IMG/VR virus record: IMGVR_UViG_3300029448_000001
Span: 45,957 to 109,956 of that record
Origin: a virus
Reading direction: 5' to 3' (one strand)
Length of the DNA stretch: 64,000 bases
Shown here: piece after piece, positions 9,246 through 63,838 of the stretch
Layout of the letters: every line of letters begins with the position of its first letter
How positions within the stretch are numbered: position 1 is the first letter of the stretch
The notes under the pieces: model-generated
Told to the model about the DNA's origin: nothing
Databases searched by the model: none
The model's input: only the letters and a program-made list of their open reading frames with translations
Translations under genes and position numbers: made by a program

Positions 9246-11030
9246 TTGAAAAAGTTCAAGCGTTACTCAAACTTAGTTAAAGAAGACGTTGTAACTAAAG
9301 AAAATGACGAACTATCTTTACAAGAGTTAATAGAACAGCTTAAAAGTAAACCTTTAACTAAAGATTCCATCAAGGAGTCTTTATATCTAGCAACGTCTGT
9401 AAAATATACAGATAAAGAAATTTCAACACTAAAAAAATATCTAGAATCCAAAATCCCCGTAGCAGAAGAACTACAAGGCCCTAGAGGAGTACAAGGTCTT
9501 CAAGGAAGTAGAGGTGAAAGAGGAGACCGCGGTCTACAAGGTCTACAAGGAATACAAGGAACAAAAGGAGACAAAGGAGAAGCTGGTGACCCAGGTGGTC
9601 CAGCAGGTCCTCAAGGAGAAGCAGGTCTGCAAGGTCCAGCAGGTCCTCAAGGTCAAAAAGGGGAACAAGGAGACAAAGGCGAAAAGGGAGACAAAGGAGA
9701 TACAGGTTCTCAAGGACTGCCAGGTGTAGATGGAAAAGATGGGCTTACTGGAGAAAAAGGAGAACGTGGTCAAACAGGAGCAAGAGGACTTAGAGGACTT
9801 AGAGGATTAAAAGGATTAACAGGACTTGCAGGTAAAGATGGATTAGATGGAAAAGATGGAAAAGATGGGCTAAATGGTGAAGACGGAAAAGATGGGGAAA
9901 AAGGAGAAAAAGGAGATGTAGGACCAGCAGGACTTCAAGGGGAAAAAGGTCTTCAAGGAGAAAAAGGAGACAAAGGAGATGCAGGTCAAGATGCTGATTT
10001 AACTAAAGCACAAGAAGAATTTTCTAAATTTAAAAAAGTTTTACAAAATGATTTAAGTAAATATAAAACTAGAGTGAATGCCCAAATTGCAAGAACTATA
10101 GGCGGAGGTAATGCAGGCTCTGGTGAAGTTAATTTAAGATTTTTAGATGATGTAGATACTACAAACTTAGCTAATAATAAAATTTTAAAATACAATTCAA
10201 GCACATCAAAATTTGAGTTTGGTGATGATGCTACAGGAGGTGCATCAGTAAATTTAAGTAATCTTATTTTAACTGGAAACGCTACAGTACAACATTTAAT
10301 ACCTTCAGCGAATGTTACTTTTGACTTAGGTTCTCCCACTAGATTTTTTAGAGATTTATATTTAAGTGGAAACACTCTTGTATTGGGTGGACAAACTATT
10401 TCGATTGGTGCGAATAACGAACTTTCTTTACCTTCAGGAACTAAGTTTAGAGGAACTGGAGGATTTAAAATTGGCGATCAAACTATTGAGTTAGATCAAA
10501 ATGGTGCTTTAAAAATGCCTGCTGGCACTAAATTTGGAACTTCAAATATAAAACCTGAAGACACAGATACAAAAGCACAAGCCGCTAGAGATGAATCGAA
10601 CACAGTAAATTTATTAGCACAGTCTTCACATGATTTAGCTAACACTAATACAGTCTTGGCTCAAGCCGCTAGAGATGAATCGAATACTGTTAATGTATTA
10701 GCAACAGCAACAAGAAATGAATCAAATACAGTAAACTTAATTGCTACAGCGGCCAGAAGCGAATCAAATACTGTGAGTGTTATAGCAACAGCGGCTAGAA
10801 ACGAGTCTAATACAGTTAATGTATTAGCACAAGCGGCCAGAGATGAGTCTAATACTGTGAGTGTTATAGCAACAGCGGCTAGAAACGAGTCTAATACAGT
10901 CAACGTAATTGCAACAGCGGCTAGAAATGAATCAAACACAGTTAGCGTAATTGCACAAGCTGGTAGAGACACAGCTAACACAAGAGTAACAACAGGAAAA
11001 TCTATCGCAATGGCAATCGTATTCGGATAA
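9246..11030 (+). CDS. Collagen-like fibre protein with C-terminal 14-residue repeats
   Basis: Fibrous virion protein of 594 residues starting at a TTG one base after the portal stop; no nearby ATG fits. Order of parts: a charged helical N-terminus (1-77); Gly-X-Y collagen-like repeats from about 78 to 249, expected to form a triple helix; a short coiled coil; a beta-rich segment with LGSPTRFFRDLYLSGNTLVLG (about 360-380), a motif seen in marine phage fibres; and seven or more 14-residue repeats of the ARNESNTVSVIATA type (about 443-580). It is probably a trimeric tail or capsid fibre. The position between portal and prohead genes is unlike T4. Confidence 0.8.
   Translation: MKKFKRYSNLVKEDVVTKENDELSLQELIEQLKSKPLTKDSIKESLYLATSVKYTDKEISTLKKYLESKIPVAEELQGPRGVQGLQGSRGERGDRGLQGLQGIQGTKGDKGEAGDPGGPAGPQGEAGLQGPAGPQGQKGEQGDKGEKGDKGDTGSQGLPGVDGKDGLTGEKGERGQTGARGLRGLRGLKGLTGLAGKDGLDGKDGKDGLNGEDGKDGEKGEKGDVGPAGLQGEKGLQGEKGDKGDAGQDADLTKAQEEFSKFKKVLQNDLSKYKTRVNAQIARTIGGGNAGSGEVNLRFLDDVDTTNLANNKILKYNSSTSKFEFGDDATGGASVNLSNLILTGNATVQHLIPSANVTFDLGSPTRFFRDLYLSGNTLVLGGQTISIGANNELSLPSGTKFRGTGGFKIGDQTIELDQNGALKMPAGTKFGTSNIKPEDTDTKAQAARDESNTVNLLAQSSHDLANTNTVLAQAARDESNTVNVLATATRNESNTVNLIATAARSESNTVSVIATAARNESNTVNVLAQAARDESNTVSVIATAARNESNTVNVIATAARNESNTVSVIAQAGRDTANTRVTTGKSIAMAIVFG
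10558..10990 (+). repeat. 42-bp tandem repeats in fibre gene
   Basis: Tandem units of 42 bases (14 codons) encode the C-terminal repeats of the collagen-like fibre. Alternate units are nearly identical at DNA level, for example gcggctagaaacgagtctaa recurs, giving a higher-order 84-base period. Such repeats can expand or contract by slippage or recombination. Confidence 0.85.
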
Positions 11031-25111: not shown

Positions 25112-25513
25112 ATGGCTTACAGCGATAAAGTTATAGACCATTATGAAAACCCTAGAAATGTAGGGTCTATGGACAAGAGTGACCCTAGTGTTGGAACTGG
25201 TATGGTTGGGGCTCCAGCGTGTGGTGATGTAATGAAATTACAAATTAAAGTTAGTGATGAAGGTATCATAGAAGATGCTAAATTTAAAACTTATGGTTGT
25301 GGTAGTGCTATTGCAAGTAGCAGTTTAGTTACAGAGTGGATTAAAGGTAGAAGCATAGAACACGCAGAGGAAATAAAAAATACAGCGATAGCTAAAGAGT
25401 TGTGTTTACCTCCTGTAAAAATACATTGTAGTATATTAGCCGAAGATGCTGTTAGGTCCGCAATAGACGATTACAAGAAAAAAAAGATTGAAGTTAAACA
25501 GGAGATTCTATAA
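25112..25513 (+). CDS. iscU: Iron-sulphur cluster scaffold IscU
   Basis: IscU-type scaffold of 133 residues on which [2Fe-2S] clusters are assembled from IscS sulphur. All key residues are present: C37 with D39 ([11 protein letters not shown]), C63 ([11 protein letters not shown]) and H105-C106 ([11 protein letters not shown]). The LPPVK segment at 99-103, recognised by the HscA chaperone, is intact. Full length compared with bacterial IscU (about 128). The phage copy should therefore dock with the host Isc machinery. AAGGAG site; overlaps the next gene by one base. Confidence 0.93.
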
Positions 25514-25935
25514 TGTTTGATAAATTACTTTCAAGAAAAAATAAAGAAAAATCTGATGCAGATGAATTGTTAGATTTTTGTGATGAAGCTAGTACTACAG
25601 ATAAAATGCCTGACCTTTTTCACGTTACAAAGGCGGCCGCTAATAAAGTTTCATCACTAGTAAGCAATGAAAAGAATGCTAAAGGATTAAGAATATTTGT
25701 TCAAGGTGGAGGTTGTTCTGGTTTTCAATATGGATTTGCTTTTGCAGAGGAAATTGAGGAAGATGATACTGAGATAAAACAGCATGGAGTTTCAATAGTA
25801 GTTGATGCTATGAGTTATCAGTATGTAATGGGAGCAGAAGTAGATTATAAAGATGACTTACAAGGTGCATCATTTGTAATTCGTAATCCAAATGCAACCG
25901 CTACTTGTGGGTGTGGTTCTAGTTTTGCATATTAA
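25513..25935 (+). CDS. erpA: A-type Fe-S carrier (IscA/ErpA family)
   Basis: A-type carrier of 140 residues that moves Fe-S clusters from the scaffold to target enzymes. The three ligand cysteines are present: C68 ([11 protein letters not shown]) and C132/C134 (TCGCGSSF). Residues 1-34 are a charged extension not found in typical 107-115 residue IscA or ErpA; it may mediate a phage-specific contact. It cannot be decided between IscA and ErpA from sequence. Directly follows iscU. Confidence 0.88.
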
Positions 25936-25945
25936 AGGAGATAAA

Positions 25946-26254
25946 ATGAAAAAATTATTGTTAATAACATTACTTTGTTTTTCAAATTTTGCAATGGCAG
26001 GGAATTCTAAATTAGGTGAAGCTAAATTTAAAATGAATTGTAAACAATGTCATGGTCCAGCTGGAATGGGTATGGCAAGTTATCCTAAAGTATCTGGAAA
26101 TCCAGTAGAATACACAATTGATAAATTGAAAACTTATCGAAGCGGTCAAGAGGTGGGACCTAATTCAGCACTAATGATAATGATGGCTAAACCTTTAAGT
26201 GATACTGATATAGAAAATTTAGCTGAATATCTTAAAAATGCAAAGAGAGACTAA
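25946..26254 (+). CDS. Periplasmic class I cytochrome c
   Basis: A 102-residue protein from ATG 25946 behind AAAGGAGATAAA; an upstream in-frame extension inside erpA has no ribosome site. Signal peptide 1-18 ends AMA. Heme site C32-x-x-C35-H36 (CKQCHG), then YPKVSGN and a Met-rich segment (MIMMAKPLSD, 77-84) that can give the axial Met. The end LSDTDIENLAEYL is typical of short c553/c4/c5-like domains. It would carry electrons in the periplasm after host Ccm attaches heme. Phage cytochromes are rare. Confidence 0.92.
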   Translation: MKKLLLITLLCFSNFAMAGNSKLGEAKFKMNCKQCHGPAGMGMASYPKVSGNPVEYTIDKLKTYRSGQEVGPNSALMIMMAKPLSDTDIENLAEYLKNAKRD

Positions 26255-31992: not shown

Positions 31993-32276
31993 TAGAATAC
32001 AAATATGATGAAAATAATTCTTTAAGTGAAATAAAAGAATATATTGATAAAACTTATGGGCAACATTATTCAAAAAATAATTTTCAGGCTACTGAATTTA
32101 TAATTGATGGTGGACATGGTGAAGGTTTTTGTATCGGCAACATTATGAAATACGCTCAACGATACGGAAAAAAGAATGGTAGGGATAAAAATGACTTACT
32201 AAAAGTGATTCATTATGCGATAATAATGTTACACGTTCATAACTTAGCGAAAGGAAATGATAATGAAATTAAGTGA
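31989..32276 (+). CDS. DUF3310 protein
   Basis: A 95-residue protein. GNIMKYAQRYGKKNG followed by DLLKVIHYAIIML is the DUF3310 signature found in many phages beside replication genes. Family members are sometimes called nucleotide-kinase-like, but activity is not shown. It precedes the sliding clamp gene and ends 13 bases after the clamp start at 32263, so the two are probably coupled. Confidence 0.8.
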   Translation: MIEYKYDENNSLSEIKEYIDKTYGQHYSKNNFQATEFIIDGGHGEGFCIGNIMKYAQRYGKKNGRDKNDLLKVIHYAIIMLHVHNLAKGNDNEIK

Positions 32277-32934
32277 AAACACAATTTCTATTTTGAAAAA
32301 TTGTGCCATGATAAATGAAGGCATACAAATAAAACCAGGGTCTACTATTAGAACCATTTCTAAGATGAAAAATGTCTTAGCTAAGGCTACTATTGATGAG
32401 ACCTTTGATAATGAGATAGTTCTTTATGACTTGAATAGATTTCTTGGGCTTGTAGGTATGCTAAAAGACCCTGAGATAGAAGTTAATTCAGGTGAAAAGA
32501 TTCTAAATGTAAAGTCTAGTTCTACTAATAGTAAAATAAGACTTTCTGATGTAAGTATGATTATTGCTCCTCCTGAAAAAGATATTGATTTAGTTTCTCC
32601 CGAAGTTGAGTTTGAATTGAAACAGAATGATTTGAATCAAGTTGTTAGGTCTTCCTCTGTTTTAGGTCTTCCAAATATAGCTGTAATAGGTGATAGGGAA
32701 AATATCTACTTGGCGACTCTAGACCAAAAAGATTCTAATAGTGATGAGTTTAAAATAAAAGTAGGAACAACTTCTTCTGAGTTTGTTTTTTATTTTGTAA
32801 CTGAAAACTTAAAATTAATATCAGGTGATTATAATGTTTCAGTCACAACAAAAGGCTTTTCACATTTTAAAAATGTAAATGGTAAAATTGAATATTGGCT
32901 TGCCAATGAGGCAGGTTCCGAGTTTAGTGAATAA
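32263..32934 (+). CDS. 45: Sliding clamp gp45
   Basis: Processivity clamp of 223 residues from ATG 32263, which is seven bases after AAGGA; an ATG at 32257 is too close to that site. The N-terminus KLSENTISILKNCAMINEGI and the block LYDLNRFLGLVGML are typical of T4-type clamps. It tethers gp43 polymerase and also activates gp55-dependent late transcription. It is followed by clamp loader genes 44 and 62, as in T4. Confidence 0.93.
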   Translation: MKLSENTISILKNCAMINEGIQIKPGSTIRTISKMKNVLAKATIDETFDNEIVLYDLNRFLGLVGMLKDPEIEVNSGEKILNVKSSSTNSKIRLSDVSMIIAPPEKDIDLVSPEVEFELKQNDLNQVVRSSSVLGLPNIAVIGDRENIYLATLDQKDSNSDEFKIKVGTTSSEFVFYFVTENLKLISGDYNVSVTTKGFSHFKNVNGKIEYWLANEAGSEFSE

Positions 32935-32951
32935 TATATTATGGAGTTTTT

Positions 32952-33896
32952 ATGCTACAAGATATTTTATGGGTCGAAAAATATCGACCTAAAAAAATTG
33001 ATGATGTAATTTTACCTAAAGAGTTAAAAAAAACTTTTGTTAAGTTTGTAGAGCAAAAAGAAATACCAAACTTAATTTTATCTGGTGGTTCTGGTGTAGG
33101 TAAAACTACTATAGCTAGAGCCATGCTGGAAGAGTTGAATGCAAATTATATTGTTATCAATGGTTCTTTACATGGGAATATTGATACGTTGCGTAATGAC
33201 ATTCAGAACTTTGCATCTACTATGTCTTTTACAGGCGATAGAAAGTATGTAATCTTAGATGAAGGCGATTATTTAAATGCTCAAAGCACTCAACCTGCAT
33301 TGAGAAATTTTATGGAAGAGTTTTCATCTAATTGCGGTTTTATTATTACTTGTAATTTTTTAAATAGAATTATAAAACCTCTTCATAGTAGATGTTCAGT
33401 TATAAATTTTACTATTCAATCTAAGCAAAAGGCAAAACTTGCTTTTAGTTTTTTAAATAGATTAAAAAATATTCTTTCATTAGAAAATATTTCTTATGAT
33501 GAAAAAGTTTTGGCACAACTAATCATGAAGTATTTTCCTGATTGGAGAAGAGTTTTAAATGAGTGCCAAAGACATTCTTACAGCGGTAGTATAAATGATG
33601 AAATTTTAAGTAATGTAAAAGATGTTTCATTGGATTCTTTAGTTAAGGCAATGAAAGAAAAAAATTTTTCGTCAATGAGAAAATGGGTTTCTGAAAATTT
33701 AGATAATGATGTAAACGAAATTTTTAAAAATTTATATGAAAGATTTATTAAGAATATAAAACCTAATTCCGTTCCTCAGTTTATTTTACATTTAGCAAAA
33801 TATCAATATCAATCTGCTTTTGTGGCAGACCAAGAAGTTAATATAGTTGCTTTATTGACTGAAGTTATGGCAGACTGTGAGGTTATTAATGAATAA
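32952..33896 (+). CDS. 44: Clamp loader large subunit gp44
   Basis: AAA+ ATPase of 314 residues. Walker A GGSGVGKT (45-52), Walker B YVILDEGDYL near 96-105, and an SRC arginine-finger motif in LHSRCSV. The N-terminal LWVEKYRPKKIDDVILP is the usual clamp-loader start. With gp62 it opens the gp45 ring onto DNA. The start has GGAG upstream. It overlaps the nuclease-like gene by eight bases. Confidence 0.95.
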   Translation: MLQDILWVEKYRPKKIDDVILPKELKKTFVKFVEQKEIPNLILSGGSGVGKTTIARAMLEELNANYIVINGSLHGNIDTLRNDIQNFASTMSFTGDRKYVILDEGDYLNAQSTQPALRNFMEEFSSNCGFIITCNFLNRIIKPLHSRCSVINFTIQSKQKAKLAFSFLNRLKNILSLENISYDEKVLAQLIMKYFPDWRRVLNECQRHSYSGSINDEILSNVKDVSLDSLVKAMKEKNFSSMRKWVSENLDNDVNEIFKNLYERFIKNIKPNSVPQFILHLAKYQYQSAFVADQEVNIVALLTEVMADCEVINE

Positions 33897-34350
33897 AGAC
33901 GTAAAGATGCAAATGTTAGGTCAGTTAGGTGAAGCCATAGTTCAAAATTATTTACAAGATATAGGACATAATGTAAGAAAGTCGGTAAATACTTTTGACC
34001 ATGAAAAAGATTTTACTGTAGACGGAAGACCAATAGAGGTAAAAACTCAAGTTCCTTTCTTCTCAGAAAGTGCATTTACAGTTAAGCCTAATCAATTACC
34101 AAAATGTCGTAATGTTGATATGTTATTTTTTGTGGCAGTACCAAATACAAAAGGTACGTATAAGGATTTTTATGGTGGTCGGGTTTATCAAGTTGATCCT
34201 AAAAAGGCGAGATGGAAAACAAGAACGGTATCTGGTACGAGAAGAATGAAAATTCTGCCTATTGAACAAGATGCAGTTCAGTTAGTACATACAATTTTAG
34301 ATAAAAGTATTTTAAGGCAAATGGAAGAACTATCCGTGAGTGAAATATAA
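33889..34350 (+). CDS. PD-(D/E)XK nuclease-like protein
   Basis: About 153 residues from ATG 33889, which overlaps the gp44 stop and has GAGG upstream; an earlier in-frame ATG at 33877 is less likely. LGQLGEAIVQNYLQDIGH, then DHEKDFTVDGRPIEVKTQ shows a helix with conserved Glu followed by D-x(n)-ExK, the PD-(D/E)XK nuclease core. It lies between the two clamp-loader subunits, where T4 has none. It may be a DNA repair or junction nuclease; specificity is unknown. Confidence 0.6.
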   Translation: MNKDVKMQMLGQLGEAIVQNYLQDIGHNVRKSVNTFDHEKDFTVDGRPIEVKTQVPFFSESAFTVKPNQLPKCRNVDMLFFVAVPNTKGTYKDFYGGRVYQVDPKKARWKTRTVSGTRRMKILPIEQDAVQLVHTILDKSILRQMEELSVSEI

Positions 34351-34712
34351 TGAATGTTTTTGATTATTTAAATTCTATCAATCATAATAAAACTGATTTG
34401 GTGAAAAGTGAAAAGTTTGATGAAAAAGAATATAATCCTTTTATAGTAAACAAAGGACTATCCTATTTTATTGATACCATAATATTCGCTAATGATATGA
34501 ATATGTCTTTTGATTTGAATAAAAAGGCACAATATTTGTATTTGCTAAATAGTGTTAGACCTAGAAAAAGATATTCTAAATGGTTTAAAAAAGATAAAGC
34601 GAAAGATGTTGAGTGGATTTCCGAACACTATGGTTATAGTCATAAAAAGTCAAAAGAAATCCTAGAAGTTTTAAACAAAAAACAAATTTCGCTAATAAAG
34701 GAACAACACTAA
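34350..34712 (+). CDS. 62: Clamp loader small subunit gp62
   Basis: A 120-residue protein in the gp62 position. The N-terminal NVFDYLNSINHNKTDL and the C-terminal helix-rich half with AKDVEWISEHYGYSHKKSKE are typical of marine T4-like gp62. It is shorter than T4 gp62 (187 residues), which is usual for this group. One-base overlap with the preceding gene. It would form the 4:1 loader with gp44. Confidence 0.85.
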   Translation: MNVFDYLNSINHNKTDLVKSEKFDEKEYNPFIVNKGLSYFIDTIIFANDMNMSFDLNKKAQYLYLLNSVRPRKRYSKWFKKDKAKDVEWISEHYGYSHKKSKEILEVLNKKQISLIKEQH

Positions 34713-34723
34713 GAAAGAATGCT

Positions 34724-35131
34724 ATGATTGGAGTAGAGAATTTACTAGAAGTTGAATTAGTTAAAGAAGATGATTTTTTAAAAGTACGGGAAACTCTTAC
34801 TAGAATAGGTGTGGCTTCCAGAAAAGATAAGACTCTTTATCAGTCTTGCCACATATTACATAAGAGAGGTAAATATTACATAGTACATTTTAAAGAGTTG
34901 TTTGGGTTAGATGGGAAATCTACAGATTTTACGGATAATGATTTATCTAGAAGAAATGCAATAACTAAATTACTAGCAGAGTGGAATCTAGTGCAAATTG
35001 TTAATGAAAATATAAAAGAGGAGCCTGTTGCACCTTTATCACAAATAAAGATTATATCTCATAAAGATAAAGATGAATGGAATTTGGTTGCTAAGTATAA
35101 TATAGGTAAAAAAAGAGAAAACTTGTCTTGA
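34724..35131 (+). CDS. regA: Translational repressor RegA
   Basis: RegA of 135 residues binds the start regions of early mRNAs and blocks translation. The N-terminal VENLLEVELVKEDDFLKVRE, then TLTRIGVAS and QSCHILHKRGKYYIVHFKEL (split at RGK) are the conserved parts, and FDL-like LFGLDG follows. Gene order 45-44-62-regA is the T4 order. Ends before a T-rich spacer leading to a small DNA-binding protein. Confidence 0.92.
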   Translation: MIGVENLLEVELVKEDDFLKVRETLTRIGVASRKDKTLYQSCHILHKRGKYYIVHFKELFGLDGKSTDFTDNDLSRRNAITKLLAEWNLVQIVNENIKEEPVAPLSQIKIISHKDKDEWNLVAKYNIGKKRENLS

Positions 35132-35679: not shown

Positions 35680-36165
35680 ATGACAAACCTAGCATTACAG
35701 CCTTTTGGCGATGTCTTTGACAAATTCTCAAAATCTTTTATTGGTAGTGATTCAGTTTATGATAATATGCATAAACTTCATGATGACTTAACCAAAAATA
35801 TTCCAAACTATCCCCCTTATAACATTCGTAAGGTTGAAGATAATAAGTATGTTATCGAACTTGCTTTGGCAGGATTCGCAAAACAAGACTTAGAAATTCT
35901 TCTAGAAGAGAATATGCTAAAGATTACAGGAAAAACTGTTGAAGATTCCTCGGAAAACTTCTTATTCAAAGGAATAGCAAATAGAACTTTCACTCGCTCC
36001 TTTGCTCTTGATGAACAAGTTGAAGTAAAAGATGCAGAGATGTTGAATGGGTTGCTTAAAGTTTTTCTGGAAAGAATTATTCCAGAACATAAGAAACCTA
36101 GAAAGATTGATGTTAAAGATGAAAATGGTGAGGTTGCAAGTTCTAAGAAAATAGAAAAGAAGTAG
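35680..36165 (+). CDS. hsp20: Small heat-shock protein Hsp20
   Basis: Alpha-crystallin-type holdase of 161 residues. The core runs from about 45 to 140: PPYNIRKVEDNKYVIELALA, then GFAKQDLEILLEENML, GKTVED, and FTRSFALDE. The C-terminal I-x-I-like anchor is weak (RKIDVKD). It should keep unfolded proteins soluble during infection or assist virion assembly. Hsp20 genes are common in cyanophages and pelagiphages. A late promoter and an AAGGAG site precede it; a perfect hairpin follows. Confidence 0.92.
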   Translation: MTNLALQPFGDVFDKFSKSFIGSDSVYDNMHKLHDDLTKNIPNYPPYNIRKVEDNKYVIELALAGFAKQDLEILLEENMLKITGKTVEDSSENFLFKGIANRTFTRSFALDEQVEVKDAEMLNGLLKVFLERIIPEHKKPRKIDVKDENGEVASSKKIEKK

Positions 36166-36167
36166 CC

Positions 36168-36198
36168 AAAAGGGGAACAACAATGTTCCCCTTTTTTA
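36168..36198. terminator. Bidirectional terminator between hsp20 and pqqA
   Basis: Perfect 12-bp stem AAAAGGGGAACA with TGTTCCCCTTTT and loop ACAA. T runs are present on both strands (longer on plus). It lies three bases past the hsp20 stop and two bases past the minus-strand pqqA stop, so it can end both convergent transcripts. Confidence 0.9.
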
Positions 36199-36200
36199 TT

Positions 36201-36272
36201 TTAAGTAGAAGCAATATACATAGTAACTTCAAACCCAAATCGCAAATCAGTAGCAGTAGGTTTTGTCCACAT
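36201..36272 (-). CDS. pqqA: PqqA, precursor peptide of the cofactor PQQ
   Basis: A 23-residue gene on the minus strand. It begins MWTKPTATDLR and continues FGFEVTMYIAST. This matches the bacterial PqqA pattern W-x-KP-x3-DLR-x-GFEVTMY almost residue by residue. E15 and Y19, the pair that PqqE crosslinks to build PQQ, have the required E-x3-Y spacing. The 23-residue length equals that of typical PqqA. An AAAAGGA site lies six bases upstream, a promoter-like element at 36298-36326 and a terminator downstream. No pqqB, C, D or E is in the window, so maturation would need host enzymes. Confidence 0.87.
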   Translation of the reverse strand: MWTKPTATDLRFGFEVTMYIAST

Positions 36273-36297
36273 GTTTTTTCCTTTTAAAAAGTTAGTA

Positions 36298-36325
36298 TTG
36301 ATATGAGTAATAGACTCATGTACAA
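36298..36325 (-). promoter_or_regulatory. Overlapping minus-strand promoter for pqqA
   Basis: Read on the minus strand, the same block gives TTGTAC as -35 and TATCAA as -10 with a 16-base spacer holding the same inverted repeat. Transcription would begin near 36291, leaving a leader of about 18 bases with the AAAAGGA ribosome site. Match to consensus is moderate. Confidence 0.5.
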
Positions 36326-36326
36326 T
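36298..36326 (+). promoter_or_regulatory. Sigma-70-like promoter of DNA polymerase gene 43
   Basis: -35 TTGATA (36298-36303), spacer of exactly 17 bases, -10 TACAAT (36321-36326). The spacer contains an inverted repeat ATGAGT-AATAG-ACTCAT (36303-36319), a candidate operator. The leader to the gene 43 ATG is about 64 bases and lacks a clear ribosome site next to the start. Confidence 0.7.
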
Positions 36327-36396: not shown

Positions 36397-38877
36397 ATGA
36401 AATTTTACACTAACTTTTTAAGATATGGTAATCGAATTTTTATTCGAGGCTATAGTAATGGAAAACAATTCAGCGATAAAGTTGAATATAATCCTGTCCT
36501 ATACTTTCCTACAAAAGAAAAAACTAAATTCAAAACCTTACAAGGTGAATATGTAAAACCTGTTCCTCAAGCAAATATTAAAAGTGCATTAGAAGTTATT
36601 AAGAATTATAATGAGATAGAAAATTATCAAGTCTACGGTTCTACTAATTTTCCTTATGTTTATATAAATGAAACGTATACAGGAAAAGTAAATTATGATG
36701 TATCTCAAATAAAAATAGCTAATATAGATATTGAAGTTGCTTCCGAAAATGGATTTCCTGATGTTGACTTTGCTTGTGAAGAGGTAACAGCAATTACAAT
36801 TAAACTGAAAGATATTTTTTATGTATTTGGTTGTGATGAATATTCTAACAATAAAGATAATGTAAAATATTATAAATGTGATTCGGAATCTGATTTATTA
36901 AAAAAGTTTTTAAAATTATGGTGTCAACATAGTCCTGATGTAATTACAGGTTGGAATGTAAGATTTTTTGATATTCCTTATTTGCACAATCGTATGTGTA
37001 AAATTTTAGGAGAATCCGAAACTAAAAATTTATCACCATGGAAAATAGTTGAAGCTGATAATATATTCATTAGAGGTAGTGAGCAAAAATCATATAACAT
37101 TTATGGCGTAACAACTTTAGATTATTATGAACTTTATAAAAAGTTTACATATACTCAACAAGAAAGTTATAAATTAGACCATATTGCTTTTGTAGAGTTA
37201 GGTGAAAAAAAATTAGATTATTCTGAATATGAATCCTTACATACTTTGTATAAAAATGATTATCAGAAATTTATTGATTATAATATAAAAGATGTAGAGT
37301 TGGTTGATAAGCTAGAATCAAAAATGAAACTTTTAGAACTTGCTTTTGCTTTGGCTTATGATGCTAAAACTAATTTTGTTGATGTGTTTACTCAAGTAAG
37401 AATGTGGGATTGCCTAATTCATAATTATTTAATTAATAAAAATATTGTTGTTCCTCAAAAAAGAGTTACAAGAAAAGACGTACAGTATGCAGGTGCGTAT
37501 GTAAAAGATCCTATAGTTGGTATGCACGATTGGATTGCTTCTTTTGATTTGAATAGTTTGTACCCTCATTTAATTATGCAATATAATATTTCACCTGAAA
37601 CAATCATGTCTAATACGGATATGCCTACAGATATTGAGTATTATCTAAAAGAATCTAATGAAATAAAAAAAAGTAAATATTGTGTTGCGGCAAATGGTAC
37701 TTGTTTTTCCAAAACAAAACAAGGATTCTTACCTGAGATGATGGAAAGTATGTATGGTGAAAGGTCTGAGTATAAAAAGAAAATGATTTTAGCTGAAAAA
37801 GAATATGAAAAAACTAAAGATAAAAGTTTAGTTAATGATATCTCTAGATACAAGAATATTCAAATGGCAAAAAAGATTCAACTAAATTCAGCTTATGGTG
37901 CCTTAGGTAATGAGTATTTTAGATTTTTTGATGTTAGACAAGCTGAAGCAATTACGTTGTCAGGTCAGTTAAGTATTAGATGGATTGCTAATGATTTAAA
38001 TAGATATTTAAATAATTTATTAAAGACAGAGGATAACGATTATGTTATAGCCTCTGATACTGATTCCGTTTATATAAACTTTGGACCATTAGTTTCAAAA
38101 GTTTTTAAGAATGAAACTGATAAAAATAAAATTGTAGATTTTTTAGATAAAGCATGTTCCGAAAAAATAGAACCATTCATTGACAACTCTTATGAAAAAT
38201 TAGCGAAAAGACAAAATGCTTTTTCGCAAAAGATGATTATGAAAAGAGAAGTTATATGCGATAAAGGAATATGGACAGCTAAGAAAAGATATATTTTAAA
38301 TGTTTGGGATAGTGAAGGTGTAAGATATGGCTCTGCAAAATTAAAAATGTCGGGTATAGAGGCCGTTAAGTCGTCAACGCCTTATGCATGTAGAGAGAAG
38401 ATTAAAGATGCTCTCAATGTTGTTATGAATGGTAATGAAAATGAATTTCATTCTTTTGTTGAAAAAACTAAAAACGAATTTAAAAAGTTATCTTTTGAAG
38501 ATATTGCCTTTCCTAGAAGTGTATCTAATATTAATAAATTTAAAGACAAAGCACACATTTATGGTAAAGGTACTCCTATTCATGTTAGAGGTGCATTATT
38601 ATTCAACACATTAGTAAACAAGAATAAATTAGAAAAGAAATATGAACTTATACGAAATGGGAATAAAGTTAAATTTTGTTATTTAAAACTTCCTAATCCT
38701 ATTCAAGAAAATGTTTTAGCTATAAATAACATATTACCTAAAGAATTTAAACTTGAAGAATATATTGATTATCAACTACAATTTGAAAAGGCATTTTTAG
38801 AGCCTTTAAATATCATTGTGGATAAGATTGATTGGACAACAGAAAAAGTAAATACACTAGAGGGGTTTTTCTCATGA
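36397..38877 (+). CDS. 43: DNA polymerase gp43 (family B)
   Basis: Replicative polymerase of 826 residues. The exonuclease domain has D111-I-E113 (ANIDIEVAS) and later NVRFFDIPYL. Polymerase motif A is SFDLNSLYPHL near 384, motif B KKIQLNSAYGALGN near 490, and motif C ASDTDSVY near 553. Length is slightly below T4 gp43 (898), normal for marine relatives. The start region lacks a strong ribosome site, which would suit regulation at the mRNA leader as in T4. It ends at an ATGA overlap. Confidence 0.97.
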   Translation: MKFYTNFLRYGNRIFIRGYSNGKQFSDKVEYNPVLYFPTKEKTKFKTLQGEYVKPVPQANIKSALEVIKNYNEIENYQVYGSTNFPYVYINETYTGKVNYDVSQIKIANIDIEVASENGFPDVDFACEEVTAITIKLKDIFYVFGCDEYSNNKDNVKYYKCDSESDLLKKFLKLWCQHSPDVITGWNVRFFDIPYLHNRMCKILGESETKNLSPWKIVEADNIFIRGSEQKSYNIYGVTTLDYYELYKKFTYTQQESYKLDHIAFVELGEKKLDYSEYESLHTLYKNDYQKFIDYNIKDVELVDKLESKMKLLELAFALAYDAKTNFVDVFTQVRMWDCLIHNYLINKNIVVPQKRVTRKDVQYAGAYVKDPIVGMHDWIASFDLNSLYPHLIMQYNISPETIMSNTDMPTDIEYYLKESNEIKKSKYCVAANGTCFSKTKQGFLPEMMESMYGERSEYKKKMILAEKEYEKTKDKSLVNDISRYKNIQMAKKIQLNSAYGALGNEYFRFFDVRQAEAITLSGQLSIRWIANDLNRYLNNLLKTEDNDYVIASDTDSVYINFGPLVSKVFKNETDKNKIVDFLDKACSEKIEPFIDNSYEKLAKRQNAFSQKMIMKREVICDKGIWTAKKRYILNVWDSEGVRYGSAKLKMSGIEAVKSSTPYACREKIKDALNVVMNGNENEFHSFVEKTKNEFKKLSFEDIAFPRSVSNINKFKDKAHIYGKGTPIHVRGALLFNTLVNKNKLEKKYELIRNGNKVKFCYLKLPNPIQENVLAINNILPKEFKLEEYIDYQLQFEKAFLEPLNIIVDKIDWTTEKVNTLEGFFS

Positions 38878-44958: not shown

Positions 44959-46796
44959 TGTTATTTAAAAAATATACAAATTATCTTTTAGAAAAAAAAG
45001 AGGTAGAACAAGATCCTCACGTTTCTAAGAGAGATGGTAGTCAGCCTAAAAAATATTATAAAGGTCTATCTAAAGATAAAAAGACATCTAGAGCCTCGCA
45101 CTTTGAAAAGCATGGGAAAAAATCGGATTCAGACCCTGATGCTTACAAAGATGCACCTGGAGATAAAAAAGCTAGAGAAAAAGGAAAACTTAAAACATCA
45201 AAGCATACAGAAAAATATAAAAAAATGTATGGAGAAAAAAGCGATCCTTGTTGGGACACACATATACAAAAAGGAATGAAAAAGAAAGGTAATAGAATGG
45301 TTCCTAATTGTGTTCCTAGAGAGCAAACTAATGAAGCTAGTTCTCCTGAACAACAAGTTCAAATGAGTAGATTGGACCAGTTAGTTCGTATGGGATTAGC
45401 TGATAAAAAAGAATTAGCGTTATTAAGAAGAGCAGTTACAAAATTAAGAAGTGGTTCAGATTTAGCACAAAATGAAAGAGGAGCCGCTTATGATTTACTA
45501 ACTACTTTGTTAGACATGGTTTTATCAACAAATAGTATGTTTAATTTAACAAAGAAAAAATTAAAAGAAGAAGAAGTTCAAGAAACTCCTATGGGAAATC
45601 TTGGTAAAAAAATTGGAAGTTTAATTCACAAAGGACAATATAAATCTGCGTTAAAAGATTTAAAAGATGTATTAAAAAGAAAACCAAAAGGAAGAAATTT
45701 ATATTATGCATCTAGAGTGGCTCAAAGTTATAAAGATGTAGATGCTAAACTTTTAACTAAAATGTTAGTTACTGAAGATTATAATGAAGGAGTTACTACT
45801 GATGGTATAGGTATGGCGAAAATTGAACTTGCTAATTTAGAACAAGATGTAGAAGATTTGCAAGAGATGTTTATGAATATGCAAGAAGAACCTGAGCAAT
45901 GGGTTCTTTCAAAAATAGCTAAAGCCACTGATTACATAGAGTCAGCGAGAGATTATTTGGAGTTTGAAGGTTTAAATAAGTCTGAGGATATGGAAGAAGG
46001 TTTAGAAGAACTAGAACTTGATCCTGAACTAGAAGAAGAAGTTGAACAAATTTTTCAAGAAATGCTTGAAGAAGAAGAGTTTGACCAAGATTTTTATGAT
46101 GTATTAGAAGAAGAAAAGATTACAGGTTTAGTTAATAAAGCTGAGAAGTCAGGAATATCATATAGTATTTTAAAACAAGTTTACAATAGAGGAATGGCCG
46201 CTTGGAAAACAGGGCATAGACCCGGAGCATCTCAGCAACAATGGGCTTTTGCAAGAGTTAATTCTTTTATAACAAAAGGTAAAGGTACTTGGGGAGGTGC
46301 TGATAAAGATTTAGCCGCTAAGGCTAGAGGTAGTGAAAAGAAAGAGTCTGTAGAATTAGGAACTGATGCTTCTAGAGTAGCTTACGCTAGAGAAACGCCG
46401 GGACAAAACCCTGACTTAGTAACTGCAAAGTATTCGGCAGATACAGTATTAAACGTATTAAATGATATTCGTACTCAAAGAGCAAAAAAGATATATGAGG
46501 AAGAAGAAGAAATAACCGAAGCAGAATATCAAGGAAAAAAAGTAAAACTAAACGACCCTTTCAGAACATCTGAAGGTCCTAAAAAGTTTTCTGTATATAC
46601 AATGGGTCCGAAAGGTAAAGTTGTAAAAGTTAATTTTGGTGACCCAAACATGGAAATTAAAAGAGATGACCCAGAAAGAAGAAAAAGTTTTAGAGCAAGA
46701 CATGGTTGCGATACAGATCCGGGACCAAAGTGGAAAGCAAAGTATTGGTCTTGTAGAATGTGGGAAAAAGGCAAATCAGTTTCAGAATTAGACTAA
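44955..46796 (+). CDS. Modular virion protein with DUF5872- and DUF5824-like domains
   Basis: A 613-residue mosaic protein. Residues about 30-120 (KYYKGLSKDKKTSRASHFEK, ending NCVPRE) resemble DUF5872. Then come helical domains, a very acidic linker (about 335-390), a DUF5824-like domain at about 395-440 (GISYSILKQVYNRGMAAWKT, GHRPGASQQQWAFARVNSF) and a C-terminal Cys domain (RARHGCDTDPGPKWKAKYWS, CRMW). An early LLEKKE and several Leu/Val-x-Glu linkers could be prohead-protease sites. Probably packed in the head or on the virion; roles of the modules are unknown. Confidence 0.7.
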   Translation: MMLFKKYTNYLLEKKEVEQDPHVSKRDGSQPKKYYKGLSKDKKTSRASHFEKHGKKSDSDPDAYKDAPGDKKAREKGKLKTSKHTEKYKKMYGEKSDPCWDTHIQKGMKKKGNRMVPNCVPREQTNEASSPEQQVQMSRLDQLVRMGLADKKELALLRRAVTKLRSGSDLAQNERGAAYDLLTTLLDMVLSTNSMFNLTKKKLKEEEVQETPMGNLGKKIGSLIHKGQYKSALKDLKDVLKRKPKGRNLYYASRVAQSYKDVDAKLLTKMLVTEDYNEGVTTDGIGMAKIELANLEQDVEDLQEMFMNMQEEPEQWVLSKIAKATDYIESARDYLEFEGLNKSEDMEEGLEELELDPELEEEVEQIFQEMLEEEEFDQDFYDVLEEEKITGLVNKAEKSGISYSILKQVYNRGMAAWKTGHRPGASQQQWAFARVNSFITKGKGTWGGADKDLAAKARGSEKKESVELGTDASRVAYARETPGQNPDLVTAKYSADTVLNVLNDIRTQRAKKIYEEEEEITEAEYQGKKVKLNDPFRTSEGPKKFSVYTMGPKGKVVKVNFGDPNMEIKRDDPERRKSFRARHGCDTDPGPKWKAKYWSCRMWEKGKSVSELD

Positions 46797-54406: not shown

Positions 54407-56428
54407 ATGGAAATTAAGATTGATTTTAGTAGAGATAAATTATTTGATGAACTAGGAATGAAAAGATTAGCAGAATCTTATATGCGAGATGATGAAATAT
54501 CACCACAAGAGAGGTTTGCTTATGTTTCAAAAAGTTTTGGAAGTGATAGCGATCATGCACAGCGTTTGTATGATTACAGCAGTAGGCATTGGTTATCTTA
54601 TTCTACACCTATTTTATCTTTTGGGCGTAGTAAGCGTGGCTTGCCTATTTCTTGTTTTCTCCCTTATCTACATGATAGTGCAGAGGGACTCATAGAATGT
54701 TTAGCTGAAGTAAACTGGTTATCAATGTTAGGAGGTGGAGTAGGTATAGGTGTAGGTATTCGTTCAGCAGATGAAAAGTCTACAGGAGTTATGCCTCATT
54801 TAAGAACTTATGATGCGGCCTGTTTAGCGTATAGACAAGGAAGAACAAGAAGAGGTTCATACGCAACATATCTAGATATATCTCACCCAGACATTATGTT
54901 ATTTTTAGAAATGCGTAAACCTACTGGCGACCCTAACATGAGAACTCAAAATTTACATCATGGAATAAACATACCAGATTCATTTATGCAAATTATTGAA
55001 AAGTGTATGTTAGATGAAAATGCAAATGATGATTGGGAATTGAAAGACCCTAATACAATTGTAGTAAAAGAGATTGTATCAGCTAAAGACTTATGGCAAA
55101 GAATTTTAGAAATTCGTATGCAAACTGGAGAACCATATCTTCATTTCATAGATACGAGCAATAGAATGATGCCTGAGTTTCAAAAGAAAAAAGGTCTTAG
55201 TATAAAGCAGTCAAATCTTTGTTCAGAAATTATTTTGCCTACAGATAAAAATAGAACAGCCGTGTGTTGTTTATCATCTTTGAATTTAGAATACTATGAT
55301 GAATGGAAAGATAATCCATTGTTTTTAAGAGATGTGGCAGAAATGTTAGATAATGTTTTGCAATATTTTATAGACAATGCTCCTGATAGTGTATCAAGGG
55401 CAAAATATAGTGCTATGCAAGAAAGGTCAATTGGAATAGGTAGTCTTGGTTATCATGCTTATCTACAAAAAAATATGCTATCGTGGGAATCTACACAAGC
55501 AAGGTCTATAAATGTAGAAATGTTTAGGCATATAAGAAAAAGTTTAGATGAAGCAAATCTTGAACTCGGTAAACTTAGAGGAGAGGCTCCTGATGCTGTT
55601 GGTACTGGTCAAAGATTTTCTCACCTTATGGCTATTGCACCTAATGCCAGTAGTAGTATCATCATGGGTAATACATCTCCTAGTGTAGAACCTTATAGAG
55701 CGAATGCGTACAGACAAGATACTTTGTCTGGAGCCCATTTGAATAAAAATAAATTCTTAGATAAAATATTAAAAGAGGTGACAAATGATGATAAAAAATA
55801 TAATGAGTTATGGAGTTCAATTATCGCAAATGATGGTTCAATTCAACACATTCAATCCCTCAATGATTCAATTAAAGACGTTTTCAAAACTTCAATGGAA
55901 GTCGACCAAAGATGGATTGTACAACATGCCGCTGATAGGCAGAAATACATAGACCAAGCACAAAGTCTTAATTTATTCTTTAGACCAACTTCTGATGTAG
56001 CGTATATTCATGCTACACATTTTCAAGCATGGAAAGAAGGTCTTAAAACATTATATTACTGTAGGTCAGAAAAGATAGGTAAAGCTGATAAAGTAGCAAA
56101 AAGATTAGAAAGAGAAGTTATTAAAGAATTAGATATGAAAGCTATTGTTGAGGGAGATTCAAAGTTTAGAAATATTGTATATGGAACACCTACTTGCGGA
56201 TTCTGTAAAAGAGCAAAAGCAGAACTTACTCGCAGAGGGGTAATTTTTGATTATGTAGATTTAAATGAAATTAACAAAACGGCCGCTGAAGTTACAGGTC
56301 GTGCAGTTAAATCTGTTCCTCAAATATATCTAAATGGAGAGTATATAGGCGGATATACAGAAATGATGAATTATCTAAATAATCAGTCGAATTCAGATGA
56401 CGTAGAATGTTTAGCCTGCGAAGGCTAA
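54407..56428 (+). CDS. nrdA: Ribonucleotide reductase large subunit with built-in glutaredoxin
   Basis: Class I NrdA of 673 residues. The ten-stranded barrel region contains NLCSEIILPT and CCLSSLNLEYYD with active-site cysteines, and ATP-cone sequence is absent at the N-terminus, so dATP feedback at that site should be missing. Residues about 587-660 are a complete glutaredoxin: C597-G-F-C600 (GTPTCGFCKRAK), SVPQIYLNG and GGYTEM. The extreme C-terminus ECLACEG keeps the NrdA redox pair C668/C671. The glutaredoxin thus sits between barrel and redox tail. Confidence 0.93.
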   Translation: MEIKIDFSRDKLFDELGMKRLAESYMRDDEISPQERFAYVSKSFGSDSDHAQRLYDYSSRHWLSYSTPILSFGRSKRGLPISCFLPYLHDSAEGLIECLAEVNWLSMLGGGVGIGVGIRSADEKSTGVMPHLRTYDAACLAYRQGRTRRGSYATYLDISHPDIMLFLEMRKPTGDPNMRTQNLHHGINIPDSFMQIIEKCMLDENANDDWELKDPNTIVVKEIVSAKDLWQRILEIRMQTGEPYLHFIDTSNRMMPEFQKKKGLSIKQSNLCSEIILPTDKNRTAVCCLSSLNLEYYDEWKDNPLFLRDVAEMLDNVLQYFIDNAPDSVSRAKYSAMQERSIGIGSLGYHAYLQKNMLSWESTQARSINVEMFRHIRKSLDEANLELGKLRGEAPDAVGTGQRFSHLMAIAPNASSSIIMGNTSPSVEPYRANAYRQDTLSGAHLNKNKFLDKILKEVTNDDKKYNELWSSIIANDGSIQHIQSLNDSIKDVFKTSMEVDQRWIVQHAADRQKYIDQAQSLNLFFRPTSDVAYIHATHFQAWKEGLKTLYYCRSEKIGKADKVAKRLEREVIKELDMKAIVEGDSKFRNIVYGTPTCGFCKRAKAELTRRGVIFDYVDLNEINKTAAEVTGRAVKSVPQIYLNGEYIGGYTEMMNYLNNQSNSDDVECLACEG

Positions 56429-61281: not shown

Positions 61282-61434
61282 ATGATTAAGAAAGCAATTG
61301 CAAATTTTTTGAGAAAAACTTTAGTGCTGTTTGAGGATAATGCAGGAACTCCAGTACAGAAGAAAAAAGCACCTGTAATGAATAAAAGAAGACCTTCTAG
61401 AAAAAGAAAGCCTAGAGCGAATTCAAAAACATAG
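61282..61434 (+). CDS. Small basic protein after endolysin
   Basis: A 50-residue protein from ATG 61282 behind AAGGAG. N-terminal amphipathic helix (IKKAIANFLRKTLVLFED), C-terminus very basic (NKRRPSRKRKPRANSKT). The last 23 bases overlap the end of the convergent minus-strand glycosyltransferase gene. Possibly membrane- or nucleic-acid-binding; no family recognised. Confidence 0.6.
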   Translation: MIKKAIANFLRKTLVLFEDNAGTPVQKKKAPVMNKRRPSRKRKPRANSKT

Positions 61435-62428
61435 AAGTGCATTTTTCCCATGTCCATTTTTTAGATGATTCATAAACTTTTTTTCGATCTAAAGAAATTG
61501 CATTATTAAAATCTTTTTGCAAATTATCAGTCATTATTCCATTGACACCTTGCTCTATTACTTCTTTAGGTCCTGGTTCATAGTATGTGAGAAGAGGAGT
61601 TCCACAAGCGATAGATTCTAAAAGAACAATTCCGAAAGTATCAGTTTTGCTAGGAAAAACAAATAAATCTGCGTTAGCATAAAATTCACCTAACTCATAG
61701 TTTTCTTTTTTACCTAAAAACAAAACATCTTTATATTTTTTTCGCAAAGTATTAAGATATGGACCATCTCCTATTAGTATTTTTTTATATGTTGATGTGT
61801 TAAGACTGCAAAAGTCATCTAATCCTTTTTCCCTTGAAGCCCTAGATACACACAACACACATTTTTCTGTATTACCTCTTTTTTTATAATTAAAATAGTT
61901 TGAATCTACACCTCTCGTCCACAGTTGCATATTAGAAAATCCATAGTTTTCCAGTTCATCTTTTATTGATCTTGTAGGAACTAATATTTTTTTTGATTTT
62001 TTATGAAAATATTTAAAATACCTGTAAGAAAGTTTTTTAGGTATTTTAAACATATTTTGTATATAATCTGGGAATTTCGTATGAAATGATGTCGTGTATG
62101 AAAATCCTTCTTCATCTAAAATTCTTTTTGCATAAAGACCGAGAGGACCTTCAGTTGCAATGTGTATCTTATCACCAAAGTTTGCTCTACCTAAAATGTA
62201 ATTTCTATAAATTTGTGGATTTAACATTAACTCTATTTCTTTATAGAATGGCAGTTTAATTGTTTTCCAATAATTTGTAGGATCACCGTTTGCAAAACAT
62301 AACCATTTTGGGTGATACACCATGACATCTATTTTTTGTTTTTTTAATTGATGTATGATATTTTTGTAAGTATTTACAACACCATTAATTTGTGGGTCCC
62401 AAGCATCAGTTATTATTAGTATTTTCAT
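61412..62428 (-). CDS. agt: GT4 glycosyltransferase, Agt-like (glycolipid synthesis)
   Basis: GT-B fold transferase of 338 residues. The opening KILIITDAWDPQINGVVNTY, then HIATEGPLGLYAKR and YTTSFHTKFPDYI follow the Agt type of diacylglycerol glycosyltransferase used by SAR11 and rhizobia in phosphate stress. The C-terminal E-x7-E region is DTFGIVLLESIACGTP. It would move a sugar from a nucleotide sugar to diacylglycerol. The gene lies at the end of a minus operon that also encodes a PlcP-like phosphoesterase, which makes diacylglycerol. Substrate is inferred. Confidence 0.78.
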   Translation of the reverse strand: MKILIITDAWDPQINGVVNTYKNIIHQLKKQKIDVMVYHPKWLCFANGDPTNYWKTIKLPFYKEIELMLNPQIYRNYILGRANFGDKIHIATEGPLGLYAKRILDEEGFSYTTSFHTKFPDYIQNMFKIPKKLSYRYFKYFHKKSKKILVPTRSIKDELENYGFSNMQLWTRGVDSNYFNYKKRGNTEKCVLCVSRASREKGLDDFCSLNTSTYKKILIGDGPYLNTLRKKYKDVLFLGKKENYELGEFYANADLFVFPSKTDTFGIVLLESIACGTPLLTYYEPGPKEVIEQGVNGIMTDNLQKDFNNAISLDRKKVYESSKKWTWEKCTSMFLNSL

Positions 62429-62624: not shown

Positions 62625-62926
62625 AATTTATCAATCTGATATTTTGTTTTGTATATGGTAGAATGTATTTTACAGCCTTTTTCATCAAATGTTCTTTCAA
62701 TCCATTCAAAATAATCATTTGGATCTTCACATATATATACGCAAGTAAACATTTCAGGATATTTTTCATTTTCATATTCATGAATCATATCTAAAACGCA
62801 ATCATAGATTTCAGGTTTATCAATTAAAAAAGGTTTTGCATGTAATCCTACGCTTGTTGTTAAACCAACTATCAGTATCGCAAACAATACTGATATTGAG
62901 ATTACTAATTTAATAATTCCGTCCAT
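62621..62926 (-). CDS. Small membrane-anchored Cys protein
   Basis: About 101 residues from ATG 62926 (62941 is an alternative; a longer frame runs into the neighbouring gene). N-terminal membrane segment (about 5-27, IIKLVISISVLFAILIVG), then a periplasmic domain with cysteines in DCVLDM, MFTCVYICED and EKGCKI. Related in style to its downstream neighbour. Overlaps the phosphoesterase gene by 22 bases. Function unknown. Confidence 0.6.
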   Translation of the reverse strand: MDGIIKLVISISVLFAILIVGLTTSVGLHAKPFLIDKPEIYDCVLDMIHEYENEKYPEMFTCVYICEDPNDYFEWIERTFDEKGCKIHSTIYKTKYQIDKL

Positions 62927-63663
62927 GTTACTAATTCCCATTTTCCATTGTGATGTTCGACTAAAGCTGAACAAGATTCTACCCAATCGCCGTCATTCAT
63001 ATAAATTATTCCTTCAGTTTCTTTTATTTCAGGAGTATGTATGTGTCCACAAATTACTCCGTCATAGCCTTTCTTTTTGCAGTAACGGGACAAGTTTTTT
63101 TCAAACTCGAAAATAAAGTCAACTGCCTTCTTAACACGGTGTTTAAGATAACGGCTGAGGCTCCAGTAATTAAAACCCAACTTCCTCCTAAAAGTATTAA
63201 ACTTAGTATTAAGATCAAGAATAAAATCATATGCTTTGTCTCCTAAAAATGTAAGCCACGGCGCAATTCTTGTGATACCATCGAAAATATCACCATGTAC
63301 GACCAAGTATCGTCTATCATCTTTCCCAACATGTACGGCGTGATTACATACTTGCACATTTCCAAAGCCAATATTGTAGGGTATGAGTGGGCGTAAAAAT
63401 TCATCGTGGTTTCCTGTTAAATAAACTACTTTAGTTCCTCTTTTTGCAAGACCTAATATTCTTCTTATAACATTTGTGTGTGATTGTTTCCAATGCCATT
63501 TATTTTGTTGTATTTTCCAACCATCTATAATGTCTCCAACCAAATATAAACTCTCGCAGTCATTATGTTTTAAAAAATTATTAAGTAATTCTGCTTGACA
63601 TCCTTTTGTGCCTAAATGTACATCAGATATAAAAATAGTTCTATATTTTTTTAAACGGGACAT
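62905..63663 (-). CDS. plcP: PlcP-like metallophosphoesterase (LpxH/PlcP superfamily)
   Basis: Calcineurin-type phosphoesterase of about 252 residues from ATG 63663 (a TTG two codons upstream is possible). Metal ligands: D14/H16 (ISDVHLGTKG), D44 (VGDIIDGW), N85-H86 (TGNHDEF), H123 (VVHGDIFD) and H207/H209 (CGHIHTPE). NDGDWVES near the end is typical. This group is often named UDP-diacylglucosamine hydrolase. It also includes PlcP, which splits phospholipids to diacylglycerol under phosphate stress. Its operon partner is an Agt-like transferase, which favours PlcP. Confidence 0.82.
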   Translation of the reverse strand: MSRLKKYRTIFISDVHLGTKGCQAELLNNFLKHNDCESLYLVGDIIDGWKIQQNKWHWKQSHTNVIRRILGLAKRGTKVVYLTGNHDEFLRPLIPYNIGFGNVQVCNHAVHVGKDDRRYLVVHGDIFDGITRIAPWLTFLGDKAYDFILDLNTKFNTFRRKLGFNYWSLSRYLKHRVKKAVDFIFEFEKNLSRYCKKKGYDGVICGHIHTPEIKETEGIIYMNDGDWVESCSALVEHHNGKWELVTWTELLN

Positions 63664-63838
63664 CTTCAAAACTCACATTAATTTTTTCGTCAATACTTAT
63701 TTTTGTGTTACGTTTACGCTGTCTTTTATTATATATGTTTTGGTACCATGATGCCAAAAATCTTGAGGAAGTTGTCAATAATATTGTTCCCCAACTATCA
63801 TATACTTTAAATATTTCTTGTTGTTTTCCTGGTATCAT
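63641..63838 (-). CDS. Small basic hypothetical protein
   Basis: A 65-residue protein with KVYDSWGTILLTTSSRFLAS followed by WYQNIYNKRQRKRN. It overlaps the PlcP-like gene by 23 bases downstream and the preceding gene by four bases (ATGA), as elsewhere in this minus operon. No family recognised. Confidence 0.6.
   Translation of the reverse strand: MIPGKQQEIFKVYDSWGTILLTTSSRFLASWYQNIYNKRQRKRNTKISIDEKINVSFEDVPFKKI

Follow-up and report, generated by a model that had tools for sequence, protein, structure and literature searches.

The stretch of DNA considered here, referred to as the window, comprises 64,000 nucleotides (positions 45,957 to 109,956) of the IMG/VR virus record IMGVR_UViG_3300029448_000001, a 144-kb marine T4-like phage genome in which a T4-type major head protein and a terminase were found. 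On its minus strand lies a 23-codon gene predicted to specify PqqA, the precursor peptide of the redox cofactor pyrroloquinoline quinone (PQQ). An initial annotation, made from the sequence without database searches, had proposed this open reading frame (ORF) with its start, stop and product, and all three were verified exactly as claimed; the product is MWTKPTATDLRFGFEVTMYIAST. The features of the locus and of its surroundings are collected in Table 1.

A phage gene for the PQQ precursor peptide

The peptide scores 41.6 bits against Pfam PF08042 (cut-off 21.1), the profile check that had been proposed for it, and 39.4 bits against the NCBIfam equivalog model TIGR02107 (cut-off 20). These values are about twice the cut-offs of both curated models, by which the ORF is a genuine PqqA. 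When PF08042 was run against the whole 144-kb record, its sole match was the window pqqA (39.4 bits, E=1.6e-10), which, with the TIGR02107 match, bears out the earlier statement that the PqqA motif is far beyond chance. At 23 residues the peptide is inside the range of PqqA peptides (~22-24 residues, a few longer), and its Glu15 and Tyr19 keep intact the E-x3-Y spacing of the glutamate and tyrosine that form the pair cross-linked by PqqE. No PHROG family was found for it. As a host-type metabolic gene between phage hsp20 and gp43, it takes its place among viral auxiliary metabolic genes, and we consider it quite probable that it is a functional phage pqqA, which would resupply the consumed substrate of the PQQ pathway of the host.

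A tblastn search of the 144-kb record with one query set detected no PqqB, C, D or E and no dehydrogenase of the glucose/sorbosone dehydrogenase (GSDH) type. The record is thus predicted not to hold a complete PQQ biosynthesis operon, and the enzymes specified by pqqB-E must come from the host. A scan of the record with PF01011, the PQQ repeat family, matched no protein, and so no methanol dehydrogenase.

Table 1. Features of the window near pqqA and of the cytochrome gene cluster (positions in the window)
Feature	Position	Strand	Basis or remark
pqqA, PQQ precursor peptide	36201..36272	-	PF08042 and TIGR02107 matches; product MWTKPTATDLRFGFEVTMYIAST
Ribosome-binding site AGGA, 6 nt ahead of the pqqA ATG	36279..36282	-	Sequence
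Stem-loop terminator for convergent hsp20 (+) and pqqA (-)	36168..36195	both directions	Kept in L262 and L263
Promoter-like TTGATA-17-TACAAT, directed at gene 43, not pqqA	36298..36326	+	Kept in siblings without pqqA
Presence/absence cassette, 92 bp (pqqA and its ribosome-binding site)	36198..36289		Missing from L262 and L263 when aligned
hsp20, small heat-shock protein, convergent neighbour	35680..36165	+	PF00011; PHROG 432
T4-type family B DNA polymerase gp43, divergent neighbour	36397..38877	+	PF00136/PF03104
RegA translational repressor, replication-block marker	34724..35131	+	PHROG 242
Sliding clamp gp45 and clamp loader gp44/gp62, same block	32257..34712	+	Further ORF 33877-34350 inside
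IscU/NifU-N Fe-S scaffold	25112..25513	+	PF01592; PHROG 8429 (auxiliary metabolic gene category)
A-type Fe-S carrier (HesB/IscA)	25513..25935	+	PF01521
Soluble class I cytochrome c, signal peptide, CKQCH haem site	25940..26254	+	PF00034

Expression signals and a variable cassette

The good ribosome-binding site and the terminator that had been ascribed to pqqA are both present, the latter as a real and strong stem-loop that works in both directions and is common to hsp20 and pqqA. An Rfam scan of the window gave no matches. The closest relatives of the window gp43 occur in three viral contigs. One of them (L261) has an identical (100%) gp43 and an identical pqqA. In the two others (L262, 91%, and L263, 90%) the end of hsp20, the terminator and the region upstream of gp43 align well with the window, and the 92-bp cassette is missing; the rest of their records, which at 56 kb and 21 kb are both incomplete, gave no PqqA match. 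The difference between these siblings may be one of recent presence or absence, for which gain and loss are alike possible.

Distribution, selection and position of phage pqqA

Two scans of IMG/VR with degenerate DNA patterns each yielded at least 120 contigs, totals that are lower bounds, and a narrower scan yielded 8. The 234 viral loci that were analysed (L004-L123 and L412-L525) were fetched as stretches of 1-15 kb. Within these stretches pqqB, C, D and E were found in none of the 234 pqqA-bearing viral loci, as compared with 21 of 120 comparable host loci, and contamination of the viral contigs with a host pqq operon was rejected to the same extent. Among the neighbours of virome pqqA are members of the families of terminase, DnaB-like helicase, UvsX and T4-type single-strand binding protein, and the best matches of 96 of the 120 loci in the first set are mostly to known methylophage genes and to the window, not to host loci. 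A second PqqA subtype, DMRFGFEITMYIANR, occurs in >110 viral contigs (L412-L525), some of them >100 kb in length.

Phage pqqA is under purifying selection. The ratio of nonsynonymous to synonymous polymorphism (pN/pS), which rests mainly on the EMRF subtype, is 0.17 over 106 distinct phage copies and 0.25 for the codons outside the search pattern, and the synonymous-site pattern by which the initial annotation had proposed to judge the gene in related phages is thereby found. Residues W2, P5 and R11, which are outside the search pattern, show no variation in 100 distinct copies, although their codons do vary (W has a single codon). A motif resembling a Shine-Dalgarno sequence lies within 20 nt in all 127 of the viral and cultured-phage copies sampled, and a terminator follows 36% of virome copies and 82% of host copies, compared with 1% in shuffled sequences.

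Recurrence of the gene near gene 43 of other T4-like phages had also been put forward as a check, and pqqA does recur at a favoured place of the T4-like replication block, the interval from regA through hsp20 to gp43. It lies no more than 600 bp from RegA in 23 and from Hsp20 in 18 of the 234 loci; the usual T4-like arrangement, seen with both peptide subtypes, places it between regA and hsp20 on the same strand. The RegA proteins of those phages share 63-76% identity with the window RegA; in the window pqqA is situated one step further along, between hsp20 and gp43 and on the opposite strand.

Overlooked copies in catalogued and cultured phages

A tblastn search of 50,697 phage records (INPHARED), rerun with a host-type peptide, found PqqA in 12 of them. 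These include all nine of the Methylophilaceae-phage records found, namely those of Venkman, P19250A, MEP301, MEP401, MEP402 and four Melnitz isolates; "all" here refers to the records found, since MEP431-434, EXVC038S and HIM624-A are named in the taxonomy and no sequences for them were found. A further record is that of an uncultured podovirus from Manatee Spring, whose host is not known. The last two, filed as "Acinetobacter phage MD-2021a", were rejected as phages because they are bacterial contigs with pqqABCDE. Apart from these two mislabelled contigs and the podovirus, the identified phages with pqqA infect Methylophilaceae. One of the mislabelled contigs is CAKLQF020000010.1; CAKLQH020000055.1 looks bacterial as well, as do further contigs filed under "Acinetobacter phage MD-2021a" that carry iscA/erpA.

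TIGR02107 was passed by five of the cultured-phage peptides scanned, and no annotation of the gene as pqqA exists in any of the seven phage loci inspected. Melnitz and the Manatee podovirus instead have an annotated "hypothetical" gene on the strand opposite pqqA; the calls of this kind in Melnitz (L002, 76100-76195) and at L125 (2067-2195) are probably spurious. Mention of pqq is absent from the publications on MEP301, MEP401/402 and Venkman, and in the Melnitz paper PQQ appears solely as an ingredient of the medium. P19250A carries pqqA, though Coutinho et al. (2020) state that it is without genes such as those for PqqA and methanol dehydrogenase. The spread of phage pqqA was overlooked because gene callers skip a gene of 23 codons.

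Hosts, PQQ enzymes and a phage cytochrome

Among Methylophilaceae genomes pqqA was found in 149 of 150, at a median copy number of 4 and with two or more copies in 140; most of the host copies are unlinked to pqqB-E. One methylotroph is reported to have five pqqA copies, three of them outside operons, and the same paper cites work in which a cell extract converted added PqqA into PQQ (PMC9851590). PqqE scored above the cut-off in seven of eight planktonic Methylophilaceae genomes, the exception being a 0.9-Mb single-cell genome, and a methanol dehydrogenase, of the XoxF type, was present in all eight. The suggestion in the initial annotation of a host with its own pqqBCDE, for example a methylotroph, fits both the lack of those genes in the phage and the occurrence of PqqE and XoxF-type methanol dehydrogenase in Methylophilaceae.

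The window phage also encodes a c-type cytochrome (Table 1). In a sample of 299 Pseudomonadota genomes its best match by far is to an OM43 single-cell genome (68% identity, E 4e-32), with matches outside the family at 49% or less, and within the Methylophilaceae close relatives were found in three planktonic genomes only (68, 54 and 50%). In all three a gene of the GSDH family (PF07995) immediately follows the cytochrome gene. An outright assignment of this host neighbour as PQQ-dependent was not accepted: the Pfam GSDH match is strong, but the score with NCBIfam TIGR03606, the PQQ subfamily, is far below the cut-off. Relatives of the cytochrome occur in 14 viral contigs, and pqqA was also present in 4 of the 12 that were searched, at ~1.2-2 kb from the cytochrome gene and with the A-type Fe-S carrier between them. 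No relative was found among the 50,697 phage records, nor a PHROG family. In the window the genes for IscU, the A-type Fe-S carrier and the cytochrome form a three-gene phage cluster (25112-26254). In another contig (L385, 6874-7413) a gene that by eye resembles one for a peroxiredoxin stands between the Fe-S carrier and pqqA, which suggests a redox cluster.

The cytochrome and the low G+C content of the phage (0.33, compared with 0.35 for OM43 contigs) suggest a planktonic methylotroph as host; the peptide subtype discussed below tells against this, and on balance we lean slightly toward a host that is OM43-like. Other host clues were sought with little return: no tRNA was found in a search of the whole record, and gp23 does not discriminate, since its matches stand at 65.2% for Melnitz, 64.9% for a Stenotrophomonas phage and 63.8% for a pelagiphage.

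How phage PqqA might act, and alternative explanations

In the established pathway PqqA is a substrate, of which one peptide is consumed for each PQQ, and because of this no other part of the pathway is as likely to run short. Shutdown of host transcription by the phage would cut the supply of PqqA while the catalytic enzymes PqqB-E persist, and with the substrate consumed and the enzymes persisting, one small gene would be enough. In the infected cell the phage peptide might be bound by host PqqD and cross-linked by host PqqE, then trimmed and converted to PQQ by host PqqB and PqqC. Periplasmic dehydrogenases that depend on PQQ, methanol dehydrogenase and possibly a glucose/sorbosone-type enzyme, would thereby be kept loaded, electrons would keep flowing to cytochrome c, and the resulting ATP would feed phage replication; the OM43-like cytochrome c of the phage itself would act on the same electron route. 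That pqqA is amplified in the hosts agrees with the notion that PQQ might be limited by the supply of PqqA. Methylophages thus probably top up the cofactor supply of their hosts with pqqA; we infer the expression of the gene, the conversion of its product by host enzymes and the benefit to the phage from the genomes.

Several observations weigh against such a role in the window phage. The promoter-like element that the initial annotation had given to pqqA is not supported: the sole good promoter-like site in the gap is on the plus strand and points toward gene 43, and a scan of the pqqA strand for promoters of the sigma-70 type gave a best score of 8, as against 8.3 in shuffled sequences. The siblings without the cassette are ~90% identical to the window, which implies, to the extent that their incomplete records allow, that pqqA is dispensable in this lineage. 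The DLRFGFE[VI]TMY subtype to which the peptide belongs was found in none of 187 Methylophilaceae genomes (and in 3 of 398 Pseudomonadota), so that either the host is outside the sample or the phage peptide has diverged, and the peptide is only presumed to fit host PqqE and PqqD.

The presence and absence of the gene between sibling phages, and the ~four host copies that are mostly unlinked to pqqB-E, are also what might be expected of a neutral passenger, a mobile stand-alone pqqA that is often gained and lost and is transcribed to no use. We think this unlikely in view of the low pN/pS among phage copies, the invariance of W2, P5 and R11, the common position of the gene in diverged T4-like phages and its presence in all the cultured methylophage lineages found. 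Differences of the window peptide from the host type EMRFGFEVTMYVMNK, at the C-terminus (IAST) and in the DL pair, might alternatively indicate a poor substrate or decoy that competes for PqqE/PqqD and throttles PQQ synthesis by the host. Such interference is considerably less likely again, as the catalytic Glu and Tyr and the match to the TIGR02107 equivalog are intact, and as most phage peptides match host PqqA completely or almost so, which would ill suit an inhibitor.

That the precursor gene alone is present in the phage would also suit a peptide that feeds some other host route, of the radical S-adenosylmethionine enzyme or ribosomally synthesized and post-translationally modified peptide kind, or one with a regulatory role apart from PQQ. 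The match to the PqqA equivalog over its full length, the association with hosts rich in PQQ enzymes and the co-carriage with a c-type cytochrome make this, if anything, a shade more improbable than interference. Errors of assembly or bacterial contamination do occur in such records, as the two "Acinetobacter phage" entries demonstrate, but for the window this explanation is effectively refuted: pqqA is enclosed by phage hsp20 and gp43, the junctions are identical in L261, which comes from another data set, and the gene is present in isolated, cultured phages. Resupply of a consumed substrate thus stands as the reading that we favour.

Other features of the window

The polymerase gp43 of the window has 55% identity to those of cyanophages, and UvsX and a gp41-type helicase come after the block of clamp, clamp loader, RegA and gp43. 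Elsewhere, a collagen-like fibre protein with G-x-y repeats is followed by a long tandem "ARNESNTV" repeat (9246-11030), and a ribonucleotide reductase (54407-56428) has an apparent glutaredoxin domain fused at its C-terminus, as judged from the translation only. Two minus-strand genes, for a GT4-type glycosyltransferase (61412-62428) and an LpxH-like metallophosphatase (62905-63669), are possibly envelope-modifying; both have low similarity to named families.

Significance and relationship to known systems

Opinion could be evenly divided on a wider generalization, that pqqA is a near-universal and overlooked core gene of the phages of obligate methylotrophs, acquired many times and seated beside regA, hsp20 and gp43 in those that are T4-like, that these phages control PQQ-dependent respiration via its precursor, one clade also with a c-type cytochrome, and that the DMRFGFEITMYIANR group may do likewise in other PQQ-making hosts. 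Cultured phage-host pairs exist for the direct study of viral control of PQQ-dependent methanol oxidation; the medium used for OM43 as a rule contains 1 nM PQQ (PMC9004378), which might mask a phenotype. Our observations suggest that what phages target in a cofactor pathway may be the substrate it consumes and not its enzymes, and that surveys of auxiliary genes undercount those under the usual length limits.

Phage-borne pqqA has been described before. For VP_266, a T4-like methylophage of Lake Baikal, Coutinho et al. (2020) reported both PqqA and a methanol dehydrogenase and proposed the same benefit (PMC7678222), and a 2026 survey described viral pqqA, pqqE and pqqD in reservoir sediments (PMC13188868). 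As compared by description, VP_266 resembles the window phage in being T4-like, in having PqqA and a peptide deformylase and in its predicted methylotroph host; it differs in encoding a methanol dehydrogenase, of which the window record has none, and the relatives of the window are from marine data sets. In the literature searched we found no report of the wide and overlooked distribution of phage pqqA, its recurrent seat, the indel between siblings or the link with a cytochrome.

The cultured methylophages (Venkman, P19250A, MEP301, MEP401/402 and Melnitz) share with the window phage a short, lone PqqA gene, but they belong to unrelated families, carry it at other genome positions and have the EMRFGFEVTMY subtype. 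With the PqqA family at large (PF08042; TIGR02107) the window peptide has in common its 23-residue length, the W-x-KP...D-L-R-x-GFEVTMY core and Glu15/Tyr19; it is set apart by standing alone in a phage, by its C-terminus IAST and by the DLRFGFE subtype. A likeness in logic can be drawn with psbA of the cyanophages, which specifies the D1 photosystem protein and by which a phage is proposed to supply a short-lived component of a host energy pathway. Both genes would furnish the short-lived or consumed part of such a pathway, but the product of psbA is an enzyme subunit, whereas PqqA is the consumed peptide substrate of a cofactor.
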